DNA of 64,000 nt from Arthrobacter sp. ERGS1:01 (lineage in GTDB: Bacteria > Actinomycetota > Actinomycetes > Actinomycetales > Micrococcaceae). The notes under the pieces are model-generated. The model worked only from the letters and a program-made list of their open reading frames with translations. It was not told the origin of the DNA and did no database searches. Every line of letters starts with the position of its first letter. The first letter of the stretch is position 1. Below, in pieces: positions 43,354 to 53,893 of the stretch. The translations under genes and the position numbers were made by a program. Location: NCBI RefSeq assembly GCF_001281315.1, contig NZ_CP012478.1, forward strand, positions 1 to 64,000, in the 5' to 3' direction.

Positions 43354-43441
43354 ACCCAGATAAATGGGGTCAAAATAGGCGTAGATTCGCGGAATTTCAG
43401 TGTTAACGTTGGAGAAATGTCCAACGATTGGAAGAACTGGC

Positions 43442-46400
43442 GTGGTACGTAAAAAAACGAAGTACGACATTGACGGCCAAATGAGTTTGGATTCATTGTG
43501 GTCAGAACCAGAGGAGACACGGAATGAACACGCACGGGCAACACGCCATGGAAACGATGAGGAATCACGACCCGAAGTCGTTCAGCGAGATCCAGGATCC
43601 CGAGACGTACTTTTCGAACTTGGGGACACAGATCGAGGACCAGATCGGGGACGTGATGGACAGCCTGATCCAACACGACACGCAAGGTCGATCAACGCTG
43701 GAAATCCTGGGAGAGCGCAACATGGCTCGGTTCAGGGCACGCGAGCTGGTGTACCAGGAGAGGATCTACGCATCCCTGCCGCCGTCGGAGGAAGAGATGG
43801 AGGAAACTCCGGCGGTGGCCCTGGACGAGGACCAGAGCTAGACCATCAGCTTGCGCCGGCTGCAGCCGCGGTACAGGACCAAGCTTTCCGGCCTGTCTCG
43901 CAGGACGACCTAGCCCCGTCGGGGCAGAAGGCCCGTTTCGCGGCGAACTATGAGGCAATTCGTGTCGTCCGCTTGCTCGAGGTCGAACAACGCACAGCAA
44001 CGATAGAAGAACAGCGCAGCTTGGCCAGGTGGTCCAGCTGGGGAGCCGTACCGCAACTCTTCGACAAGGAAGACTGGGCTGAGGAACGCGCCACGTTAAG
44101 GGCGGCATTGACGGAGAAGGAGTTCGACGCTGCCTCCCGAACGACGATCAATGCCCACTACACGGATGCGGGCATTGTCCAGGCAATGTGGGCTGCCGTG
44201 GAGCAGCTGGGGTTCACTGGCGGAGACGTTCTGGAACCGGGGTCAGGCTCGGGCACGTTCATTGGCATGGCTCCAGCGGGGGCGCGGATGACTGGTGTTG
44301 AGCTGGACCCGCTCACGGCCAGTATTTCCCAGGCCCTGTACCCGCAGGCGCGGATTCGCACCGAATCGTTTGCGGATACGCAGCTGCAGAGAAATTCCTT
44401 CGACCTGGCCGTGGGCAATGTCCCCTTCGGGAAGACTGCCCTGTACGACAAGGCGTTCAATCAGGGTCAGCATTCGATGCACAACCACTTCATCATCAAG
44501 TCCCTGGAAGCGGTCAAGCCTGGTGGCTACGTCGCGGTGCTGTCTTCTAGCTTCACTCTTGATGCGGCGAACCCGGCAGCACGCCGGGAAATGTCCGCGA
44601 TGGCTGACTTGGTGGGCGCCGTGCGCCTGCCCACGGCCGCTCACCGTCGTGCCGCCGGCACGGATGCCCTGACCGATGTCCTGTTCTTCCGCAAGCGCGA
44701 GGCAGGCCGGGAACCGGCCAACACCGACTGGGAAACCGTGGGCCCGGTCATCGTTGACGGCAAGAACATCAAGATCAACCACTACTTCGATACCCACCCG
44801 CAGAATGTCCTGGGCCAGATCACCGTGGGCACGGGCATGTACGGGGCAGAGACAGTGACCGTCAAAGCGGATGGAGACCTCTCGGCCGTACCCTCCCTGC
44901 TGGGTGAGCGACTGCGCCACATCACTACCGATGCCCTGGCCGAAGACCGTGGTCATACCCCCGCCCAGACAGTTGCCGGCAAGGAGCCGGCGGCCCTGCT
45001 GGAAGCCGGTCAGGCGGCGTGGGACGGAACGATCACCGCCGAGCGCAATGGTTCCTTTACTGTGCTCGAACACGGCCAGTCCGTACCCCTGGAAGTCCCC
45101 AAGTCCCATGCCGTTGAAATGCGCGCCCTGTTGGGGCTGCGTGACGGTGCCCGAGCATTGATGGAACTGGAAGCCGCAGACCGGGAAGACACCCCGGAAA
45201 TGGACGCCCACAGGGCCACGCTTCTGGCCGACTACAACCGGTACGCAGAGAAATTCGGACCGATCAACCGGTTCACGACGAGGGAACGGACTGATAAGGA
45301 CACCGGCGAGACCATCGTTAGTCGTATCTCGGCTCCTGCTGTGAAGAAGCTCCAAAGCCTTGATCCCTTCGGTAGCTTGCCCAGTGCCCTGGAAGACTTC
45401 AATGCGGAAACGCAGAAGGCACTACCAGCAGGGCTGTTGGTACACCGCCAGGTGCAGGTTCGCAAGCCTGTCATGGGTGCTGACACCATTGATGAGGCCT
45501 TGGCTATCTGTCTGGATAGCTATGGTGCCCCGGAGCTGGACGTCATTGCTGATCTGGTGGGCAGTAGCCCGGAGGAAGCGCGGGCGCAGTTGGGCGAGCT
45601 CGTCTTTGACGACCCCGCCACCGCTGCTCTGGTGACGGCGCCGGAGTACCTCTCCGGTAATGTCCGGGTGAAGCTGGACGCGGTCCGTGCAGCAGCCATT
45701 GAGGACCCGCGATGGAACATCAATGTCGCCGCCCTGGAGAAGGTCCAGCCCACCCCGGTGGGCATGGAGGACGTTGAAGCCCGCCTTGGAGCCGTATGGA
45801 TCAGTGTCGAAGACCACCAGAGGTTCATTCGCGAGACCCTGAATGACCCGCGAGCATCGGTGAGTAGTGTCGGTTCTGGGATTTGGCGGGTCAAGGCTGA
45901 CCGCGGCACGGTCAAGGCCACCAGCGAGTGGGGAACCCACCGCCGGCCCGCCCCGGACCTGCTCCAGAGCATCCTGGAGCAAAAGAGTATCCAGGTTGAG
46001 GACACGGACGCCGATGGCAAGAAGGTTGCCAATCTTGAAGAGACCGAGGCCGCCCAGGAATCGGCCAACGCGCTGCAGGAGCGCTTCGCGGAATGGGTGT
46101 GGGAGGAACCGGAACGGGCCACCCGGTTGATTGATGAATACAACCGCCGCTTCAACTCCATCGCGCTGCGCGATTACAGCCAGGAAGGTGCGCGCCTGAC
46201 CTTGCCCGGGCTGGCCGCATCCTTCAAGCCGCACCCGCACCAGCGCACCGCGGTTGCCCGTATCATCTCCGAACCGTCCGTGGGCCTGTTCCATGAAGTC
46301 GGTGCGGGAAAGACCGCGGAGATGGTGATGGGGGCGATGGAGCTTAAACGCCTGGGCATGGCCACCAAGCCCATGGTCGTTGTCCCCAACCACATGCTGG

Positions 46401-48985
46401 AGCAGTTCACCCGTGAGTGGTTGGAGCTCTATCCGCAGGCACGCCTGCTCTCTGCCGGCAGTGATGACATCAAGACCGTCAAGACGGACAGCAGCGCCCG
46501 CCGGCGCTTCGTTGCCCGCGTCGCTGCGAATGATTGGGACGGGATCATCATCACCCAGACCGCGTTCAAGAGCATCGGGGTGAAGGCCGAGACGATCGAG
46601 GCGTACCAGCACACCCTGATCGGTGACGTCCGGGAAACCATCACCAATGCCATGGAGAACGGCGAGGACCGGACCACGGTGAAGAAGCTGGAGACTAAGC
46701 TCCAGGCCGAAGAAGAGCGGATGAAGAAGCTCATGGACACGGCCCCGGATCCGGGCCTGACGTTCGAGGACACCGGCGTCGACTACCTGTTCGTGGATGA
46801 GGCTCACGACTTCAAGAACCTGCGCACCGTCACCAATATCAAGGGCGCCGAGATCACCGGTTCAGTCCGTGCCACTGACATGCACCTGAAGTTGGAGTAC
46901 CTGCGCTCTACCCATGGTGAGCGCGTGGCCACCATGGCCACCGGTACCCCGATTGCGAACTCTTTGACCGAGGCGCACGTCATGCAGCGCTACCTGCGCC
47001 CGGATTTGCTCCGGGATGCCGGGGTGGAGAACTTCGATATTTGGGGTGCGACGTTTGGTGAGACCGTCACGGCCATCGAGATGGACGCCGGCGGCCGGCT
47101 GAAGAACAAGTCCCGGTTCGCCAAGTTCAAGAACGTGCCGGAAATGCTGCGTACCTTTCACGTCTTCGCGGACGTGAAGCTCTCCGAGGACCTGAACCTG
47201 GCAACACCGGATTTGGTGAAGCGCCCCAGCGACGGGGAGCGGCAGCCCGAGCTGGTGTTGATCCCGCAGCCTCTGGAACTGGCCGAGTACATGCAGGGCC
47301 TGGCCGAGCGGCTGGATAGCCTCAAGGGTTGGGCCCAGAAGGGGGCGGATAACGCCCTGACGGTCTACAACGACGGCCGCAAGGCCGCCCTTGACCTGCG
47401 GATGGTGGGCATCGAGCCCCAATCCGCGACGAAGATTGACCACGTAGTGGCCAACACCTTGAAGGTGTGGGAAGCCAATCGCGAGAACCAGTACGAGACC
47501 GGGTTCAACTCCGGGACCATGTCCGCCCAGCGAGGTGCGTTGCAGATCATCTTCTGCGACATGTCTACCCCGTCCAAGGACAAGGGCCCGGACGGGCAGC
47601 CCGTCTGGACCGCTTACCAGCAGATCAAGGATCAGCTGGTAGCCGGCGGCATTCAGGCTGACCAGGTGAAGTTCATTCATGACTTCCCCAAGGCCGAGCA
47701 AAAGGCGGCCCTCTTTGAGCAGTGCCGCAGCGGCGACGTCGCGGTGCTCCTGGGGTCGACACCTATGATGGGTACCGGTACGAACGTGCAGCTGCGCGCC
47801 ATGGCCCTGCATCACGTGACCTGCCCCTGGCGCCCGGCCGACCTCACCCAGCGTGATGGCCGGATCATCCGCCAGGGCAATGCCAACGCGGAGGTCTACA
47901 ACTTCCAGTACGCCACCATGGGCAGCTACGACAGCGCGGCGTGGGACGGGATCCAGCGCAAGGCCACCATGATCAATCAGGTCTTGCGCGGGCGCCTGGA
48001 CGTGCGCGAGCTCGAAGACGTGGGAGACCTGGCCTTGAATGCCGCGCAGATCAAGGCCGCCACCAGCGGTAACCCGCTGGTGATGGAGAAGATCGAAGCC
48101 GACGCAGCGCGGACCAAGCTGGAACGACTCAAGCGTGCCTTTGAGAAGAACCAGAGTTCTCTGCAATGGTCCCGTGCCTCGGCGCAATCGACCATTGACA
48201 TGGCTGGGCAGAAGCTACCGGCCGTGCTGGCCGCCATGTCCACCATCCTGTCGACGCAAGGCGATGCCTTCACGATGACCTTCGGTTCACAGGCCGTGGA
48301 CACAAGGGCCGACGCCGTGGCCGGCATCTACGACTGGGTGAAAACCAACACCCCCGACTTCGGAAACTTCGCCCACCGCCAGCATGACTACGGCACCATG
48401 GCCGTCCTGGGCGGGCAGGAACTCGTGGTCTCTAACGCGGCCCACCAATCCCGCCTCGGCTCCTACCAAGACCTGGTGATCCAGGTGAAAGGCCTGCCGG
48501 ACACGGGAACAGTGTTTAGCCGGGGATTGATTTTGGAGGGCGGGACCGGGATGGTGACCAGATTGGAGAACCGGGTCGCCGGGATCCCCGACGTCGCAGC
48601 CAAGCTGCAACGCACCATCGCTGAGAAGCAGCTCGTTCTGGTCGACATTGACGCCCAGCTCGGCAAGCCCTTCAAATACGAGGACAAACTGGCCGGCGCC
48701 CGCGAGAAGAGCAAGGAGCTCGACGCGAAACTCAAAGCCTCGATGGAGAAGACCGAGCCGAAAACACCACAGCCTGAGGGTGGGCAACCGGGGAATACTC
48801 CCTTGAAGGATCCGCGCCTGGCAGAGGCGTTGGAGGCACAAGCCTTCGCGCAGAGTCTCTTCCGTTCCTCACGTCCCCAGCCAAGGAGGCTCGACCATGG
48901 GGATCGAAGCAACGCACCCACACCCAATCCCGCGATTCAACGCAACGGACCAACACGAGGGGGTCCCGACCGGGGAATCTCCTAA
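43442..48985 (+). CDS. Very large DNA methyltransferase-SNF2 helicase fusion protein of conjugative elements
   Basis: GTG 43442 follows GGAAGAA and gives 1847 residues starting VVRKKTKYDIDGQMSLDSLW; ATG 43481 (MSLDSLW) is the other candidate. An N6-adenine methylase part comes first: the SAM motif VLEPGSGSGTFIG at ~263 and the catalytic motif as GNVPFG at ~323. A helicase follows: Walker A HEVGAGKTAEM at ~950, DEAH box FVDEAHDF at ~1117, and helicase motif VI QRDGRIIRQG at ~1470. Residues ~20-140 are low-complexity and overlap a second gene in another frame. The C-terminus ends GGPDRGIS, like the relaxase. Such proteins are carried by conjugative plasmids and are thought to protect or remodel incoming DNA; this role is inferred. 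Confidence 0.85.
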   Translation: MVRKKTKYDIDGQMSLDSLWSEPEETRNEHARATRHGNDEESRPEVVQRDPGSRDVLFELGDTDRGPDRGRDGQPDPTRHARSINAGNPGRAQHGSVQGTRAGVPGEDLRIPAAVGGRDGGNSGGGPGRGPELDHQLAPAAAAVQDQAFRPVSQDDLAPSGQKARFAANYEAIRVVRLLEVEQRTATIEEQRSLARWSSWGAVPQLFDKEDWAEERATLRAALTEKEFDAASRTTINAHYTDAGIVQAMWAAVEQLGFTGGDVLEPGSGSGTFIGMAPAGARMTGVELDPLTASISQALYPQARIRTESFADTQLQRNSFDLAVGNVPFGKTALYDKAFNQGQHSMHNHFIIKSLEAVKPGGYVAVLSSSFTLDAANPAARREMSAMADLVGAVRLPTAAHRRAAGTDALTDVLFFRKREAGREPANTDWETVGPVIVDGKNIKINHYFDTHPQNVLGQITVGTGMYGAETVTVKADGDLSAVPSLLGERLRHITTDALAEDRGHTPAQTVAGKEPAALLEAGQAAWDGTITAERNGSFTVLEHGQSVPLEVPKSHAVEMRALLGLRDGARALMELEAADREDTPEMDAHRATLLADYNRYAEKFGPINRFTTRERTDKDTGETIVSRISAPAVKKLQSLDPFGSLPSALEDFNAETQKALPAGLLVHRQVQVRKPVMGADTIDEALAICLDSYGAPELDVIADLVGSSPEEARAQLGELVFDDPATAALVTAPEYLSGNVRVKLDAVRAAAIEDPRWNINVAALEKVQPTPVGMEDVEARLGAVWISVEDHQRFIRETLNDPRASVSSVGSGIWRVKADRGTVKATSEWGTHRRPAPDLLQSILEQKSIQVEDTDADGKKVANLEETEAAQESANALQERFAEWVWEEPERATRLIDEYNRRFNSIALRDYSQEGARLTLPGLAASFKPHPHQRTAVARIISEPSVGLFHEVGAGKTAEMVMGAMELKRLGMATKPMVVVPNHMLEQFTREWLELYPQARLLSAGSDDIKTVKTDSSARRRFVARVAANDWDGIIITQTAFKSIGVKAETIEAYQHTLIGDVRETITNAMENGEDRTTVKKLETKLQAEEERMKKLMDTAPDPGLTFEDTGVDYLFVDEAHDFKNLRTVTNIKGAEITGSVRATDMHLKLEYLRSTHGERVATMATGTPIANSLTEAHVMQRYLRPDLLRDAGVENFDIWGATFGETVTAIEMDAGGRLKNKSRFAKFKNVPEMLRTFHVFADVKLSEDLNLATPDLVKRPSDGERQPELVLIPQPLELAEYMQGLAERLDSLKGWAQKGADNALTVYNDGRKAALDLRMVGIEPQSATKIDHVVANTLKVWEANRENQYETGFNSGTMSAQRGALQIIFCDMSTPSKDKGPDGQPVWTAYQQIKDQLVAGGIQADQVKFIHDFPKAEQKAALFEQCRSGDVAVLLGSTPMMGTGTNVQLRAMALHHVTCPWRPADLTQRDGRIIRQGNANAEVYNFQYATMGSYDSAAWDGIQRKATMINQVLRGRLDVRELEDVGDLALNAAQIKAATSGNPLVMEKIEADAARTKLERLKRAFEKNQSSLQWSRASAQSTIDMAGQKLPAVLAAMSTILSTQGDAFTMTFGSQAVDTRADAVAGIYDWVKTNTPDFGNFAHRQHDYGTMAVLGGQELVVSNAAHQSRLGSYQDLVIQVKGLPDTGTVFSRGLILEGGTGMVTRLENRVAGIPDVAAKLQRTIAEKQLVLVDIDAQLGKPFKYEDKLAGAREKSKELDAKLKASMEKTEPKTPQPEGGQPGNTPLKDPRLAEALEAQAFAQSLFRSSRPQPRRLDHGDRSNAPTPNPAIQRNGPTRGGPDRGIS
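43524..43841 (+). CDS. Small acidic protein overlapping the methylase-helicase gene in another frame
   Basis: ATG 43524 has a good AGGAGA site and opens 105 residues of ordinary protein composition: METMRNHDPKSFSEIQDPETYFSNLGTQIEDQIGDVMDSLIQHD, RSTLEILGERNMARFRARELVYQERIYASLPPSEEEMEETP. The region resembles small proteins encoded next to such helicases on actinobacterial mobile elements, from memory. The large gene's translation here is arginine/glycine/proline-rich and looks like an out-of-frame shadow. Either the gene is nested inside the linker of the large protein, or the large protein is really expressed from a later start or by frameshifting. Its function is unknown. Confidence 0.65.
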   Translation: MNTHGQHAMETMRNHDPKSFSEIQDPETYFSNLGTQIEDQIGDVMDSLIQHDTQGRSTLEILGERNMARFRARELVYQERIYASLPPSEEEMEETPAVALDEDQS

Positions 48986-49108: not shown

Positions 49109-49480
49109 GACCTGGTACTCGCGAGCTCGCACCAGGTTAGTGGGCGTCCGCTTCGCGGCCGGCTGTTGGGTGGGTGGTCCCGGCTCCGCAAGCTCCGCCG
49201 TGCCCATCCACCTGTTTCTACGCTGCGCGTTTTTGTTGGTGTCCTTCGGATTCTACGTGTCCGCTCCACACCGTCTAGCCCCTCCTTCGTCGGGGCCTTC
49301 GTCCGGTAAAAGCATGTTCCGGCGCTCGTTCCTCGCTTATTTCCTCCACATGTTTTCCCGGTCTTGCCCTGCGGGTAGACAGTGCTCCGTCGGACACAGC
49401 TACGCAAGCTTCGCCACCAAACAAAAACAACGGGGAGAAGAGAAAGAGGCTGGCCGGGTAACACCGCTCGCTCGCCCCAC
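49109..49480 (+). repeat. Conserved leader, copy A (~372 bp)
   Basis: This stretch is repeated at 50098-50475 with, by eye, about four in five bases identical over its full length. It starts with an identical 28-bp segment containing ACCTGGT...ACCAGGT around the palindrome GCGAGCTCGC (49110-49137). Further in lie a GCCCC-N9-GGGGC hairpin (49278-49296) and a shared CTGGCCGGGTAAC near the end. It leads directly to the ribosome site of the next gene. It has open frames by chance but no protein-like pattern. A long structured leader RNA or a special promoter is likely. Confidence 0.75.
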
Positions 49481-49501
49481 ACCCAACGAAGGAGACCCGC
49501 A

Positions 49502-49927
49502 ATGCTTGCTACAGCTCTGAGAACCACCTGCACGGTGGACACCCACGAAATCGTTTCCGGCGTCCGTGTCTTGACCGATGCGCACGAGGACGGCGGTTAC
49601 GAGTGGATGGAGAAGATCGAGGAAGAAGGCTGGGTTGCCTGCGGGGCATGGGGTGTTGACGGCTGGGACTTGGGCCAATGGCCTTACGTCATGGTGGCCG
49701 TGACCAAGACCGCCGACGCATCCGGGCCGTTGTTCGGGATGGCAACGTATTGCGAGGGGGACGTGAAGACGACGTTCTACCGCACACAGGCCGCGCACTG
49801 GGAGGCCATCACCGCCGAGGCATTCAACGGGTGGAAAAACCGTACTGACGGCCCGCCTAACCTGCCGGACACGGCCGACCAGCTAGCCCCGGAATACCGA
49901 CAGCCCTACAGCCTAAACCTGAGCTAG
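49502..49927 (+). CDS. Hypothetical protein of cassette A
   Basis: From ATG 49502, after GAAGGAGACCC, 141 residues of soluble, acidic, Trp-rich character: TVDTHEIVSGVRVLTDAHEDGGYEWMEKIEEEGWVACGAWGVDGWDLGQWPYVMVAV, YCEGDVKTTFYRTQAAHWEAITAEAFNGWKN. No membrane segment and no family recognised. It is the first of two genes that share the same ~375-bp leader and a matching downstream hairpin. Its place in the presumed leading region suggests a role early after DNA entry, such as countering host defences, but nothing in the sequence proves this. Confidence 0.7.
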   Translation: MLATALRTTCTVDTHEIVSGVRVLTDAHEDGGYEWMEKIEEEGWVACGAWGVDGWDLGQWPYVMVAVTKTADASGPLFGMATYCEGDVKTTFYRTQAAHWEAITAEAFNGWKNRTDGPPNLPDTADQLAPEYRQPYSLNLS

Positions 49928-49949
49928 TTCCAGCCTGAACTATGGAGCG

Positions 49950-49988
49950 GCGCGGAACCTAGATGTCAGAAGTATCTAGGTTCCGCGC
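49950..49988. terminator. Cassette hairpin A
   Basis: A perfect 15-bp inverted repeat (49950-49964 and 49974-49988) encloses the loop GTCAGAAGT. The core GGAACCTAGAT...ATCTAGG and the loop are identical to the hairpin after the ParB-like gene. It lies 22 bases after the stop codon. No U-tract follows, so it may be an RNA-stabilising or recombination element as well as a terminator. Confidence 0.7.
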
Positions 49989-50097
49989 TCAATCCCTCAC
50001 AAGTTTCAGAAGGAATCCAATGAACGCTCAGATGGCCGGCGTTGAGAAGCCGGCCCCTCATGCTGGTTCCCGTCCGCTAGCGCGGCCAGGAACCGAA

Positions 50098-50475
50098 GAC
50101 CTGGTACTCGCGAGCTCGCACCAGGTTATTGGGCGTCCGCTGCGCGTACGACTGTTGGGGGTGGCCCCGGCTCCGCAAGCTCCGCCGCGCCCACCCCTGT
50201 TTTTGAAAACCGCTGCGCGTTTTTTGGTTGCTGTCCTTCGGATTCTACGTGTCCGCTCCACCCCGTCTAGCCCCTCCTTCGTCGGGGCCTGCGCCAGGGA
50301 AAACATGTTCCGGCGCTCCTGCGTCGCTTATTTCCTCCACACGTTTTCTCAGTCTTGCCCTTACGGGTAGACAGGGCTCCGTCGGCCACAGCTACGCAAG
50401 CTTCGCTAGCAACCAAAAAACAACGGGGAGAAGAGAAAAGCAGCTGGCCGGGTAACGCCGCTCTCGCACCCCACC
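50098..50475 (+). repeat. Conserved leader, copy B (~378 bp)
   Basis: The second copy of the leader described at 49109-49480. The opening 28-bp palindromic block is identical (50099-50126). The GCCCC/GGGGC hairpin, the TTCCGGCGCTC block, the GTAGACAG block and the terminal GGCCGGGTAAC are all kept, while the spacers differ. It runs up to the ribosome site of the ParB-like gene. The sequence downstream is unrelated to the gene of cassette A, so the conservation is in the leader, not the cargo. Confidence 0.75.
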
Positions 50476-50498
50476 CTGACCAAAAAGGAAAAACCCTC

Positions 50499-51809
50499 AT
50501 GACTGCTGTATCCGAAAACCCCGTGGCCACCGCTACGGAACTGCTCGACCCGACCACGCTCACCGTAGACACGAACGTCCGCAAAGAGGCTGCCCTGACC
50601 CCCGAGTTCGTGGCCTCCATCAAGGAACACGGTGTGCTCGTCCCTGTTGTCGGCCACCGTGCTGAAGACGGAACGGTGCACGTGCAGATGGGCCAGCGCC
50701 GCACGCTGGCCGCCGTCGAAGTTGGCCTTACCGCCATTCCCGTCCATGTCGTGGCCACACGGGAAGAAGCCGACCGGCTGGCCACCCAAGTGGTGGAGAA
50801 CGAGATGCGCCGCGCCCTGACGGACGCCGACCGCGCCGACGCCTACCACCAGATGTCACTGCTCGGTGTCTCGGCAACCATGATCGCCAGAAGAACAGGA
50901 GCCAAGAAGGCCACCGTCCAGACCGCGCTGGCCGTCAAGGCCAACGAGACGGCCGCCGCCGCACTCGCCCAGGGACTGACATTGGAGCAGTCAGTTGTGA
51001 TTGCGGAGTTCAGCGCCAACCCCGAGGAAGCCAACGAACTGGAAAAGGCAGCGTTGGAAAACCCGGGCAACTTCGTCCACAAAGCCCAACGCATGAGAGA
51101 CGATCGGGCAACTGCCGCCCTGATCGCCACGGCCACCGCTGAAGCTGAAGCCAAGGGCCTGACCGTTCTGGAGGAGAACCCGAACGGATGGGACTACAAA
51201 GGCCCGGCCGCTAGCATCTATGATCTGACGACCGCCGAGGGTGAGAAGTTGACCGGTGCGGATGCCGACGCCGTGTACCTGAACACCGGCTACAGCGGAA
51301 TCAGCGAGCGGCTGTGCGTCGCGGATTGGAAAGCCCGTGGCCTGCGTAAGGGTGGCAAGCCCGCAGCCGGGGGCATGACCGAGGAAGAGAAGCTGGCCAG
51401 AAGAACGACGATCGAGAACAACAAGGCCGCTGACTCGGCCGAGGTCGTCAGACGAGAATTCTTGGTCGCCCTGCTGTCCCGGAAGACGGTACCGAAGGAC
51501 ACGGCACGGTTCATCGCCCACACCCTGACTCACTCCTCGTACCTCGTGGCCAAGGGCACCAACTATGCCGCGTTGACGGCCACGCTGCTGGGATGCGGAG
51601 CAGACCGGGGTGAACTGCAGAAGCATCTGGCCAAGGCCACGGTGAAGCCGGAAATGGTGTCGCTGGCGATCATGATCACCGCCTACGAGGCCTCGATCGA
51701 TCGCACGAGCTGGCGACACGAGGACGAGAATCACTCCTACTACTTGAAGCAGCTCGCAGTCTGGGGTTACTCCCTCAGCGACGTTGAGAAGCTGATGAGC
51801 AGCAAGTAG
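50499..51809 (+). CDS. ParB/RepB-like nuclease-domain protein
   Basis: From ATG 50499, 436 residues. The N-terminal ParB/sulfiredoxin-like domain is clear: LDPTTLTVDTNVRKEAALTPEFVASIKEHGVLVPVVGH, then HVQMGQRRTLAAVEVGLTAIPVHVV with the GxRR nucleotide-binding box. TQVVENEMRRALTDADRADAYHQMSLLGVSATMIARRTGAKKATVQTAL is the helix-turn-helix. The remaining ~230 residues are helical and specific to this type. No ParA gene accompanies it, so a classical partition role is doubtful; lone ParB-like proteins are common in plasmid leading regions. It is the second leader/gene/hairpin cassette. Confidence 0.85.
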   Translation: MTAVSENPVATATELLDPTTLTVDTNVRKEAALTPEFVASIKEHGVLVPVVGHRAEDGTVHVQMGQRRTLAAVEVGLTAIPVHVVATREEADRLATQVVENEMRRALTDADRADAYHQMSLLGVSATMIARRTGAKKATVQTALAVKANETAAAALAQGLTLEQSVVIAEFSANPEEANELEKAALENPGNFVHKAQRMRDDRATAALIATATAEAEAKGLTVLEENPNGWDYKGPAASIYDLTTAEGEKLTGADADAVYLNTGYSGISERLCVADWKARGLRKGGKPAAGGMTEEEKLARRTTIENNKAADSAEVVRREFLVALLSRKTVPKDTARFIAHTLTHSSYLVAKGTNYAALTATLLGCGADRGELQKHLAKATVKPEMVSLAIMITAYEASIDRTSWRHEDENHSYYLKQLAVWGYSLSDVEKLMSSK

Positions 51810-51820
51810 AAACAAGAAAG

Positions 51821-51869
51821 GAAAAGCACGGAACCTAGATGTCAGAAGTATCTAGGTGCCGTGCTTTTC
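51821..51869. terminator. Cassette hairpin B (bidirectional terminator)
   Basis: Arms 51821-51840 and 51850-51869 pair over 20 bases with one mismatch around the same GTCAGAAGT loop as hairpin A. AAAA on the left and TTTT on the right give it terminator ends in both directions. It lies 11 bases after the ParB-like stop codon. Confidence 0.8.
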
Positions 51870-51981
51870 ACTTCCCTCAAAGTTTAACAGCATGCAGCCC
51901 TCGGAACCAACCGCAGTGCCCGGTTTTGAAAACGCGGCCGGTGCCGGAGCCGCCACAGATAAGTGGGAATCTCACCGCCCA

Positions 51982-52279: not shown

Positions 52280-53000
52280 GTGGTGGATGTTGTGAAATGT
52301 GGCGGCCGGCTTCGCCGGCACAGGAGAGGTTGGGTGCCTGGCCAGGTTGGGTTTCCCCTCGCCCCCAGGTGCACGGCAAAACATTCTGTCCTTCGGTGTT
52401 TTCCCGCACACAGGTGGACGACGGGACCCATGGGACCGGTTGTACACAGTCATCAGGTCACGAACATTGGTGTCTCACATTGGGTGGGCCGTTGACTGGG
52501 CACAACCTCGTGGAAGGGTGGCAGCCGGCTACGCCGGCAAAAGCAGGTTTGTGTGTGGATTGGTTTGGGTTTCCCGATGTCCACAGGTGGACAGCAAAAG
52601 AGTTTGTCCTTCGGTCTTTTCCTGCCCACAGGTGGATACCGGGGCCCATACTGACCGGCTGCACACCGGTGCCAGGTCGGCTGGGGTCCCAGAGGTTTCG
52701 TTGGGTTTTCCGTCACCCGTGCACAGCCTGGTGCGGGGGTGGTGTGGTCAAGAAGGTGGGTTTGTTGCACGAAGGGAAGTGGATGGGAGGTTGTCCCGGC
52801 GTAGCCGGGACAACCTCCCATCTGCTGTTTTGGTGAGTGGCTACTTTGCAGAGGCCGTGCACATCCACCGGTCGCGGTGGTGAGGTACCTGCCCGTGGTG
52901 AGCTGGTGGTTGTGTGCGGGTGTTCGTTTGGTTCCTGCTGTCCACAGGTGTGCGGGAAAAGACCGAAGGATCAATCTTTTGCCGTGCACGTGTAGTCAGG
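52280..53000. other. Repeat-rich non-coding region, candidate origin (oriV/oriT) or RNA locus
   Basis: Two direct units (about 52280-52450 and 52507-52680) share a CCGGC-NNN-GCCGG hairpin (52303-52317; 52529-52543) followed by CCACAGGTGGAC-like quasi-palindromes around an AAAAG...TCCTTCGGT...TTTT stem. A third, inverted unit covers 52936-53000. TGTCCACAGG at ~52580 and ~52938, with variants at ~52406 and ~52630, resemble the TTGTCCACA DnaA box of high-GC actinobacteria. Open frames here are all repeat-driven and not protein-like. The region lies just upstream of the mobilisation genes. A vegetative origin, a transfer origin or structured RNAs are all possible. Confidence 0.6.
52782..52822. 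repeat. Perfect 19-bp hairpin with a 3-base loop
   Basis: GATGGGAGGTTGTCCCGGC at 52782-52800 is followed by GTA and its exact complement (52804-52822). It lies between repeat unit 2 and the inverted unit 3, and its apex (CCGGC-GTA-GCCGG) matches the smaller hairpins of those units. It would form a very stable cruciform. Confidence 0.75.
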
Positions 53001-53329: not shown

Positions 53330-53523
53330 GGTTCCCACCGTGGCCCGCCGCAAGGCGAAAACCCAAAACCAAACCAGGAGCGGAGCAAGCTGGGCATTTA
53401 GCTATGCTAAATGGCTTACAACCTCGCTTTCGCGCTCGGTTGGTGGCAAACTGGGTTTGCGTCCCCGACGTTGTCAGGGTCGCTGCGCTGGGCCATTTGA
53501 TAGGGAAAGGGGACTTAGTTGCC
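53330..53523. other. Candidate transfer origin upstream of mobC
   Basis: The 200 bases between the small leftward gene and mobC contain CATTTAGC-TAT-GCTAAATG (53395-53413), GCAAAC-TGG-GTTTGC (53446-53460) and a second copy of GGACTTAGTTGCC (53511-53523). In mobile elements the origin of transfer normally lies directly upstream of the mobC/relaxase genes and consists of such short inverted repeats beside a nick site. I cannot locate the nick. The repeats may also be operators for MobC. Confidence 0.5.
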
Positions 53524-53893
53524 AGCTCGTATCCGTTCTGAGAACGTCAGTGGCGGCCGAAACGCTCAACCTTTCCAGGTCAAGGTTTCAGAGCACGAGC
53601 GTGCCGCTCTATTGCTGCGTGCTGATCGAGCGAAGAAATCAGTTCCCCGCCTGTTGCGAGAGTCTGCTTTGACTGACGGAGGTGCCGAAAGGCTCGCAGT
53701 TGAGGTTGAGGTTAAGGAAGAACTTGCAGGGATTCGAAACCTTGTCCGGTCCCTGAGTAACAACATCAATCAGCTCGCCAGGCACGCGAACTCCACTGGC
53801 GAATTTCCTGCCGAGGCGGCCACTGCTGTTGCCGCAGTACAACGTGCTGCGTTACGCGTGAACATGATCCTGGCGAAAATGGAACAATCATGA
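53519..53893 (+). CDS. mobC: MobC-family relaxosome accessory protein
   Basis: A 124-residue protein from TTG 53519, behind AAAGGGGAC. The N-terminus (QPFQVKVSEHERAALLLRADRAKKSVPRLLRESAL) is a ribbon-helix-helix-like DNA-binding part. The C-terminal IRNLVRSLSNNINQLARHANSTGEFPAEAA is the MobC signature (NNxNQLARxxN). It would bind oriT and help the relaxase nick. The stop overlaps the relaxase start by four bases (ATGA, 53890-53893), so the two are made together. Confidence 0.87.
   Translation: MPARIRSENVSGGRNAQPFQVKVSEHERAALLLRADRAKKSVPRLLRESALTDGGAERLAVEVEVKEELAGIRNLVRSLSNNINQLARHANSTGEFPAEAATAVAAVQRAALRVNMILAKMEQS

Follow-up and report, generated by a model that had tools for sequence, protein, structure and literature searches.

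As described in the cited parts of the respective publications, the closest counterparts of the element studied here belong to three systems. Frpo sequences were reported as single-strand promoters, along with anti-defence genes of the plasmid leading region (PMC11541004, PMC9849209). For Bacillus plasmid pLS20 and its family, several copies (five of them named) of an element called EGeRS1 were described, with approximately 325 nt conserved directly before ribosome-binding sites (RBSs); its mechanism was left between single-stranded DNA (ssDNA) and RNA, and an ssDNA promoter was called highly unlikely (PMC8708921). Furthermore, DNA repeats located 5' of Duf4192, DprA and ParB genes in 12 Arthrobacter plasmids, credited to Mihasan & Brandsch 2016, were tied to partitioning and conjugation (PMC10494377, PMC6305408). 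In this study, two leader sequences within the first 64,000 nucleotides of plasmid contig NZ_CP012478.1 of Arthrobacter sp. ERGS1:01 (referred to as the window) were analysed, which probably represent single-strand promoters of the plasmid leading region serving the first helper genes during entry, comparable to the situation in the F plasmid of E. coli. Judged by the genes behind them and by the plasmid group, not by the repeat sequence, the leaders very probably correspond to the repeats of Mihasan & Brandsch 2016, and the repeats themselves are prior art. Within the literature covered by titles and abstract openings, with preprints and most subscription journals outside the scope, no report of ssDNA promoters from Actinobacteria was found.

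Leaders, genes and terminal hairpins

Leader 1 (49109-49501, plus strand), considered a single-strand promoter candidate followed by a 5' untranslated region (UTR) with an RBS, is located 5' of a gene encoding a 141-aa protein (family A; 49502-49927, plus strand). Leader 2 (50098-50498, plus strand) precedes the gene of a ParB-like protein with a ParB_N domain (family B; 50499-51809, plus strand). The alignment with other leader copies extends to the respective start codons (49502 and 50499). Pairwise alignment of 49109-49480 with 50098-50475 yielded 87% identity over the full length, and a third leader, 93% identical, was found on the same replicon outside the window (G000:C2:121646-122023), where it precedes another member of the 141-aa family. 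Terminator-like hairpins follow the family A gene (49950-49989, plus strand) and the ParB-like gene (51816-51874, plus strand), the latter with the core and loop of the former; sections 49950-49989 and 51826-51865 share 93% identity and do not differ in the inner stem and loop. The genes enclosed by leader and hairpin are unrelated, one encoding the 141-aa protein without Pfam match and the other the ParB_N protein. The original prediction of two leaders of approximately 375 nt with alike ends around unrelated cargo genes is therefore confirmed. No match to Rfam 15 at gathering score was obtained in the window. A 31-nt pattern of the hairpin core had no exact matches in the genome contigs, and in the fetched plasmid loci only this plasmid's own copies were recovered; a hairpin core shared between two units also occurs in other plasmids, e.g., in L010 after the family A and after the ParB gene.

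Relatives of leader 1 were detected by blastn of plasmids at 173 places in 61 plasmid records originating from Arthrobacter (38), Paenarthrobacter (13), Pseudarthrobacter (nine) and Citricoccus (one), while a phage collection searched with the leader gave no match. An iterated nucleotide profile was then run against a plasmid sample, in which 20 of the 61 records were represented by stretches and the window's replicon by the window plus one additional stretch, resulting in 71 leader matches. Within each plasmid, all copies point in one direction; the sole minus match, in L068, lies in a stretch kept in record orientation and agrees with the L068 relaxase. The 3' end was reached by 67 matches, 63 of which precede an open frame of at least 40 aa, and in all 63 copies this frame starts 5-14 nt past the leader's 3' end. 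Genes behind these 63 leaders encode family A proteins (19), ParB-like proteins (16), DUF4192 proteins (15), DprA (10) and a 116-aa protein (two), and one is a 46-aa frame. Because essentially the same four gene families recur, the cargo represents a fixed set, and the proposed swapping of cargo between the regulatory ends is not supported. Instead, leaders are homogenised within each plasmid: mean leader identity is 0.888 within a plasmid, whereas leaders of different plasmids share 0.759 on average if they precede the same gene and 0.755 if the genes differ.

Moreover, a hairpin of -24 kcal/mol or lower was found within 130 nt past the stop codon in 56 of 62 leader-driven units, the weak cases including units with truncated frames. 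Hairpin energies averaged -31.5 kcal/mol after the units versus -20.2 kcal/mol in 186 intragenic stretches. The expression unit composed of leader, gene and hairpin, suggested earlier as a module, was hence encountered many times beyond this element, and its relatives in 61 plasmid records together with the strong covariation described below show that it did not arise as a single local duplication. Genes for SSB, glutaredoxin and DNA ligase neighbour the leader genes, as do, on the opposite strand, those for UmuDC.

Predicted fold of the template strand in plasmid and chromosomal copies

The folding domains were located on the template (minus) strand at 49221-49433 in leader 1 and at 50212-50426 in leader 2. 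On this strand, the arms in leader 1 are 49415-49426/49230-49241 (P1), 49378-49398/49256-49275 (P2), 49343-49360/49304-49322 (P3) and 49292-49294/49279-49281 (P4); the corresponding arms in leader 2 are 50407-50418/50222-50233, 50370-50390/50248-50267, 50334-50351/50296-50313 and 50284-50286/50271-50273. From the 53 near-full leaders, one exact duplicate, one copy rearranged at the 3' end and three copies whose cores were identical were removed. The consensus fold energy of the remaining 48 distinct copies was -216 kcal/mol on the template strand versus -192 kcal/mol on the sense strand. Among the 12 single copies tested (a quarter of the 48), the template strand was lower in energy in all 12, and its z-score was the lower one in 10 of 12 with DNA parameters and in nine of 12 with RNA parameters.

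Alignment A1 (48 rows, 43 distinct) contains 46 pairs with 96.5% paired cells. Changes on both sides were recorded for 23 of the 46 pairs (193 cells), a result equalled in none of 500 shuffles, the structure having been derived from the same alignment that was used for the test. Slid versions of this structure reached at most 14 pairs and at most 45 cells changed on both sides. The covariation check called for in the original prediction accordingly came out positive. Compensatory changes also affect the closing stem P1, the pairs of which are approximately 190 nt apart, and the basal part of P2 occurs in several matched forms varying by plasmid. A first wobble count over whole leaders looked too strong, as a control on unpaired columns revealed a strand substitution bias; the wobble claim was therefore lowered, and strand-neutral pairs and a further set of copies were used. 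Among strand-neutral pairs, 77 G-T and 27 A-C pairs were counted on the template strand, the ratio expected from the columns by shuffling being 140:106. The ratio was 35:14 in 20 non-redundant rows and 79:33 in 38 further copies, or 55:29 and 30:23 after removal of similar ones. These wobble pairs are suggestive of the template strand being the folding strand, and this strand presumably is the one that folds in vivo.

Around the apex of P3 (window positions 50311-50337), a piece of 24-27 nt is nearly identical in plasmid, chromosomal and other-genus copies. It was recovered within one mismatch in 52 of 295 family genomes. Its conservation exceeds that of the stems, and it could be a protein-binding site.

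A sigma-70-like scan of 48.9-53.6 kb returned only two sites, both on the minus strand and inside the leaders. They have the form TAGACG-N16-TAGAAT (49250-49277 in leader 1 and, with the same geometry, 50242-50269 in leader 2), the -35-like hexamer lying in P2 and the -10-like hexamer at the P2/P1 junction. The latter lies immediately beneath P2, within a junction that has 14 positions on one side and 16 on the other and is closed by P1. On the template strand, the -35/-10 pattern occurs in 43 of the 48 copies and in 20 of the 38 further copies, as compared to none on the other strand. In double-stranded DNA, the site is of no use to the gene because it points away from it, while after folding of the strand it is directed through P1 into the gene. 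In silico, the folded strand thus appears to rebuild a -35/-10 promoter.

Copies of the element were also identified beyond the plasmid records. When 396 genomes from the order of the window (presumed to be Micrococcales) were searched with a covariance model, matches were obtained in 20 genomes, 10 of which belong to other families, several of these matches being weak. One other-family contig carries three co-oriented copies, two of which precede a ParB_N gene and a DprA gene, respectively (domains confirmed); glutaredoxin genes follow two other matches of the order-wide search, and SSB genes are located near two. Within the genus, 28 model matches were obtained in 16 of 23 genomes and compared with the positions of TrwC and MobA/VirD2-type relaxases in a range of 20 kb. 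A relaxase was found within this range for 19 of the 28 matches, in each case downstream and co-oriented, and none for the remaining nine. Diverged chromosomal copies (33-43 bits) also account for 19 of the 28 matches; a MobF relaxase lies 2.2-7.7 kb downstream of 14 of them, always co-oriented, and none within 20 kb of the other five. The diverged leader of the genome studied here (G000:C1:662559-662773, within locus L014, 655000-670000, on a 754-kb contig) is followed by a DUF4192 gene and a gene for a TrwC (MobF) relaxase, and the other diverged copies checked mostly show the same DUF4192 start behind the leader. The explanation of this copy as a captured gene was dropped in view of the MobF relaxase 2.2 kb downstream. 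The locus is a candidate chromosomal integrative conjugative element that shares the regulatory element of the plasmids, and the arrangement recurs in many genomes of the genus. The fold was analysed for 18 of the 19 diverged copies, L107 being left out for want of an anchor. All 18 have an outer stem at the place of P1 that is formed by another sequence, and the consensus energy was -201.8 on the template versus -172.7 on the other strand.

Transferred strand, proposed mechanism and alternative explanations

The 21 plasmids examined for orientation were the 20 records and the window's own plasmid. An annotated mobC or relaxase gene was present in the stretches of 15 of them, and in all 15 the leaders are upstream of and co-oriented with it, in MOBP and MOBF plasmids alike. 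L073 was counted on mobC only; the six plasmids outside this count are L007, L011, L020, L022, L071 and L023, the last of which was left out as its gene is annotated only as hypothetical. In the window, a MobC/NikA-like relaxosome protein (53519-53893, plus strand; open frame with approximate start) and a MOBP-type relaxase (PF03432; 53890-55740, plus strand) are encoded downstream of the leader genes. A candidate origin of transfer (oriT) lies at 53381-53413 on the minus strand, comprising the inverted repeat 53395-53402/53406-53413 and then AGCTTGCTCCG (53391-53381) with a putative nic site. A variable inverted repeat followed by AGCTTGCTCCG on the minus strand was present in eight of the eight MOBP regions examined, a set to which the MOBP regions L024 and L073 do not belong. 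For comparison, plasmid F carries genes for SSB, a ParB-family protein and PsiB, followed by the transfer genes; its nic motif separates the two groups and occupies the strand that runs into these genes, and the layout of R388 is the mirror image. An inverted repeat is found 5' of nic on the transferred strand in both, the presumed nic motifs having been located in the sequences. By analogy, the minus strand of the plasmid studied here is presumably the transferred strand (T-strand), with its 5' end at oriT near 53.4 kb.

Based on these results, the following course of events is proposed. During conjugation, the T-strand would enter the recipient as the minus strand, running leftward from oriT through 52-49 kb, and each leader on it would fold into a branched hairpin. 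Stem P2 would supply the duplex for the -35 region and the spacer, and P1 the duplex below the junction. The -10-like TAGAAT, at the edge of the 14/16-nt junction, would already be open because the two junction sides do not pair with each other, although a 3-bp hairpin could form on one side. Initiation by host RNA polymerase would take place within the junction (near 49399-49414 in leader 1 and 50391-50406 in leader 2), approximately 90-100 nt before the start codon, with the T-strand as template, and would yield an mRNA for one gene, ending at the hairpin past the stop codon. Second-strand synthesis would remove the fold, and expression would therefore be brief. The leader genes presumably help in establishment.

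Several observations weigh against this interpretation. The number of sigma-70-like sites is itself not above chance, and unpaired columns carry their own strand substitution bias. Regarding oriT, a competing inverted repeat with CGCTGCGCTGG exists on the plus strand, and alignment of six MobF upstream regions to an R388-like nic lacked significance on both strands. In F (24 kb, leading region included) and R388 (33 kb), the model gave no match above 8 bits or at E≤0.5. Finally, both strands are able to fold, a property that also speaks for a cis-acting RNA leader, as assumed in the original prediction, in which an upstream double-strand promoter would yield a long structured 5' UTR attenuating or antiterminating the gene. 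EGeRS1 of pLS20 is likewise long, structured and multi-copy and ends at the RBS before establishment genes in the cited sections (PMC8708921). However, the better folder is the template strand in the plasmid as well as in the chromosomal set, in the main set the template strand has more G-T than A-C pairs, and the only sigma-70-like sites in 48.9-53.6 kb sit on that strand inside the leaders. Moreover, the genes studied here face the candidate oriT, whereas the transferred strand of pLS20 is described as the non-template strand (PMC8708921). An RNA leader is thus considered unlikely, and the evidence leans towards folding of the DNA template strand.

Two further explanations appear still less probable. 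The leaders might act like ssi or sso initiation sites, a hairpin causing RNA polymerase or primase to prime the second strand, with expression as a side effect. Several leader copies lie in the region presumed to be first to enter, and Frpo itself, going by the title of a 1997 paper by Masai and Arai, reportedly serves transcription and priming. Yet priming alone explains neither the leaders ending 5-14 nt before a start codon in 63 of 63 cases nor the strong hairpins that end 56 of 62 units, and this possibility is rated as improbable. Duplicated double-strand operator or promoter regions spread by gene conversion, with the inverted repeats as protein sites, would agree with the homogenisation of leaders within plasmids and with the 24-27-nt apex of P3, the best-kept piece across plasmids and chromosomes, which may bind a protein. 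Such regions would not call for compensatory changes in P1 pairs approximately 190 nt apart, nor for the chromosomal outer stem that pairs with another sequence at the place of P1, and this is regarded as the least probable of the alternatives. Single-strand promoters of the leading region, with RNA polymerase predicted to start at the junction, therefore remain the favoured explanation; they would resemble Frpo in their action but not in any detectable sequence feature.

A broader proposal, held with somewhat less confidence, is that the leaders constitute a class of ssDNA promoters unrelated to Frpo and common to conjugative plasmids and chromosomal MobF elements of Micrococcales. Their fold, branched and with the -10 placed in a junction that is open from the outset, would exist only in the transferred ssDNA and would run a whole establishment regulon (ParB-like, DprA, DUF4192, family A and, in places, glutaredoxin-SSB), each unit having its own promoter and terminator hairpin and the copies being kept alike by gene conversion.

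Neighbouring features and comparison with known systems

Of the 64 homologues obtained in one search for family A, most of those with a named source come from the Arthrobacter group; homologue P0051 carries PF12957. The predicted fold is compact (mean pLDDT, i.e., predicted local distance difference test, of 87), with no significant match among PDB or viral models; the best match, to Pur-alpha repeats, is weak and non-significant (E of 0.056). Upstream of the leaders and co-oriented with the leading genes, a methyltransferase-helicase-like protein of 1861 aa is encoded (43400-48985, plus strand), for which all Pfam matches are below the cut-off and which we take to be possibly a DarB-like anti-restriction protein. 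Between the ParB-like gene and mobC, a cluster of degenerate direct and inverted repeats of approximately 70-85 nt was observed (52347-52992), together with a perfect 19-bp inverted repeat at 52782-52822; L017, L018 and L019 contain similar stretches in the same interval. In L012 (12810-12890), past the third leader unit, a cold-shock-like gene precedes a long, nearly perfect palindrome around CCAGGCCTGG.

These leaders constitute a defined element of soil bacteria that covaries and for which -35/-10 and start regions have been named, which makes the proposal directly testable. Four gene families, one of them without known function, are marked as likely early establishment genes, and covariance model R1 detected regions of this kind outside the family as well as in chromosomal elements. 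The passages on the Arthrobacter repeats contain no fold, strand, promoter, family A gene, terminal hairpins or chromosomal and other-family copies (PMC10494377, PMC6305408).

Regarding expression from incoming ssDNA in plasmids of Gram-positive bacteria, EGeRS1 was the sole structured candidate met in the literature covered, and its authors argue against such a promoter function (PMC8708921). Model R1 gave no match at E≤1 in 50 of the 65.8 kb of pLS20. EGeRS1 and the leaders are alike in being multi-copy, structured and placed directly before RBSs, and in being associated with establishment genes of a Gram-positive plasmid, a role that is presumed for the leader genes; they differ in that the transferred strand of pLS20 is the non-template strand (PMC8708921), the opposite being proposed for the leaders.

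As far as described in the cited parts, Frpo/ssi of F and ColIb-P9 share with the leaders the presence of several copies in the leading region and the orientation of genes facing oriT (PMC9849209, PMC11541004). As with Frpo/ssi, the template strand of the leaders is presumed to be the T-strand, and -35/-10-like hexamers occur in the folded strand. Furthermore, SSB and ParB-family genes are located behind or near the elements in F as well as here. As candidate promoters, the leaders differ from Frpo/ssi in being found in Actinobacteria and in their architecture: their predicted branched structure leaves the junction at the -10 region unpaired, whereas Frpo2 of F is one long predicted hairpin.

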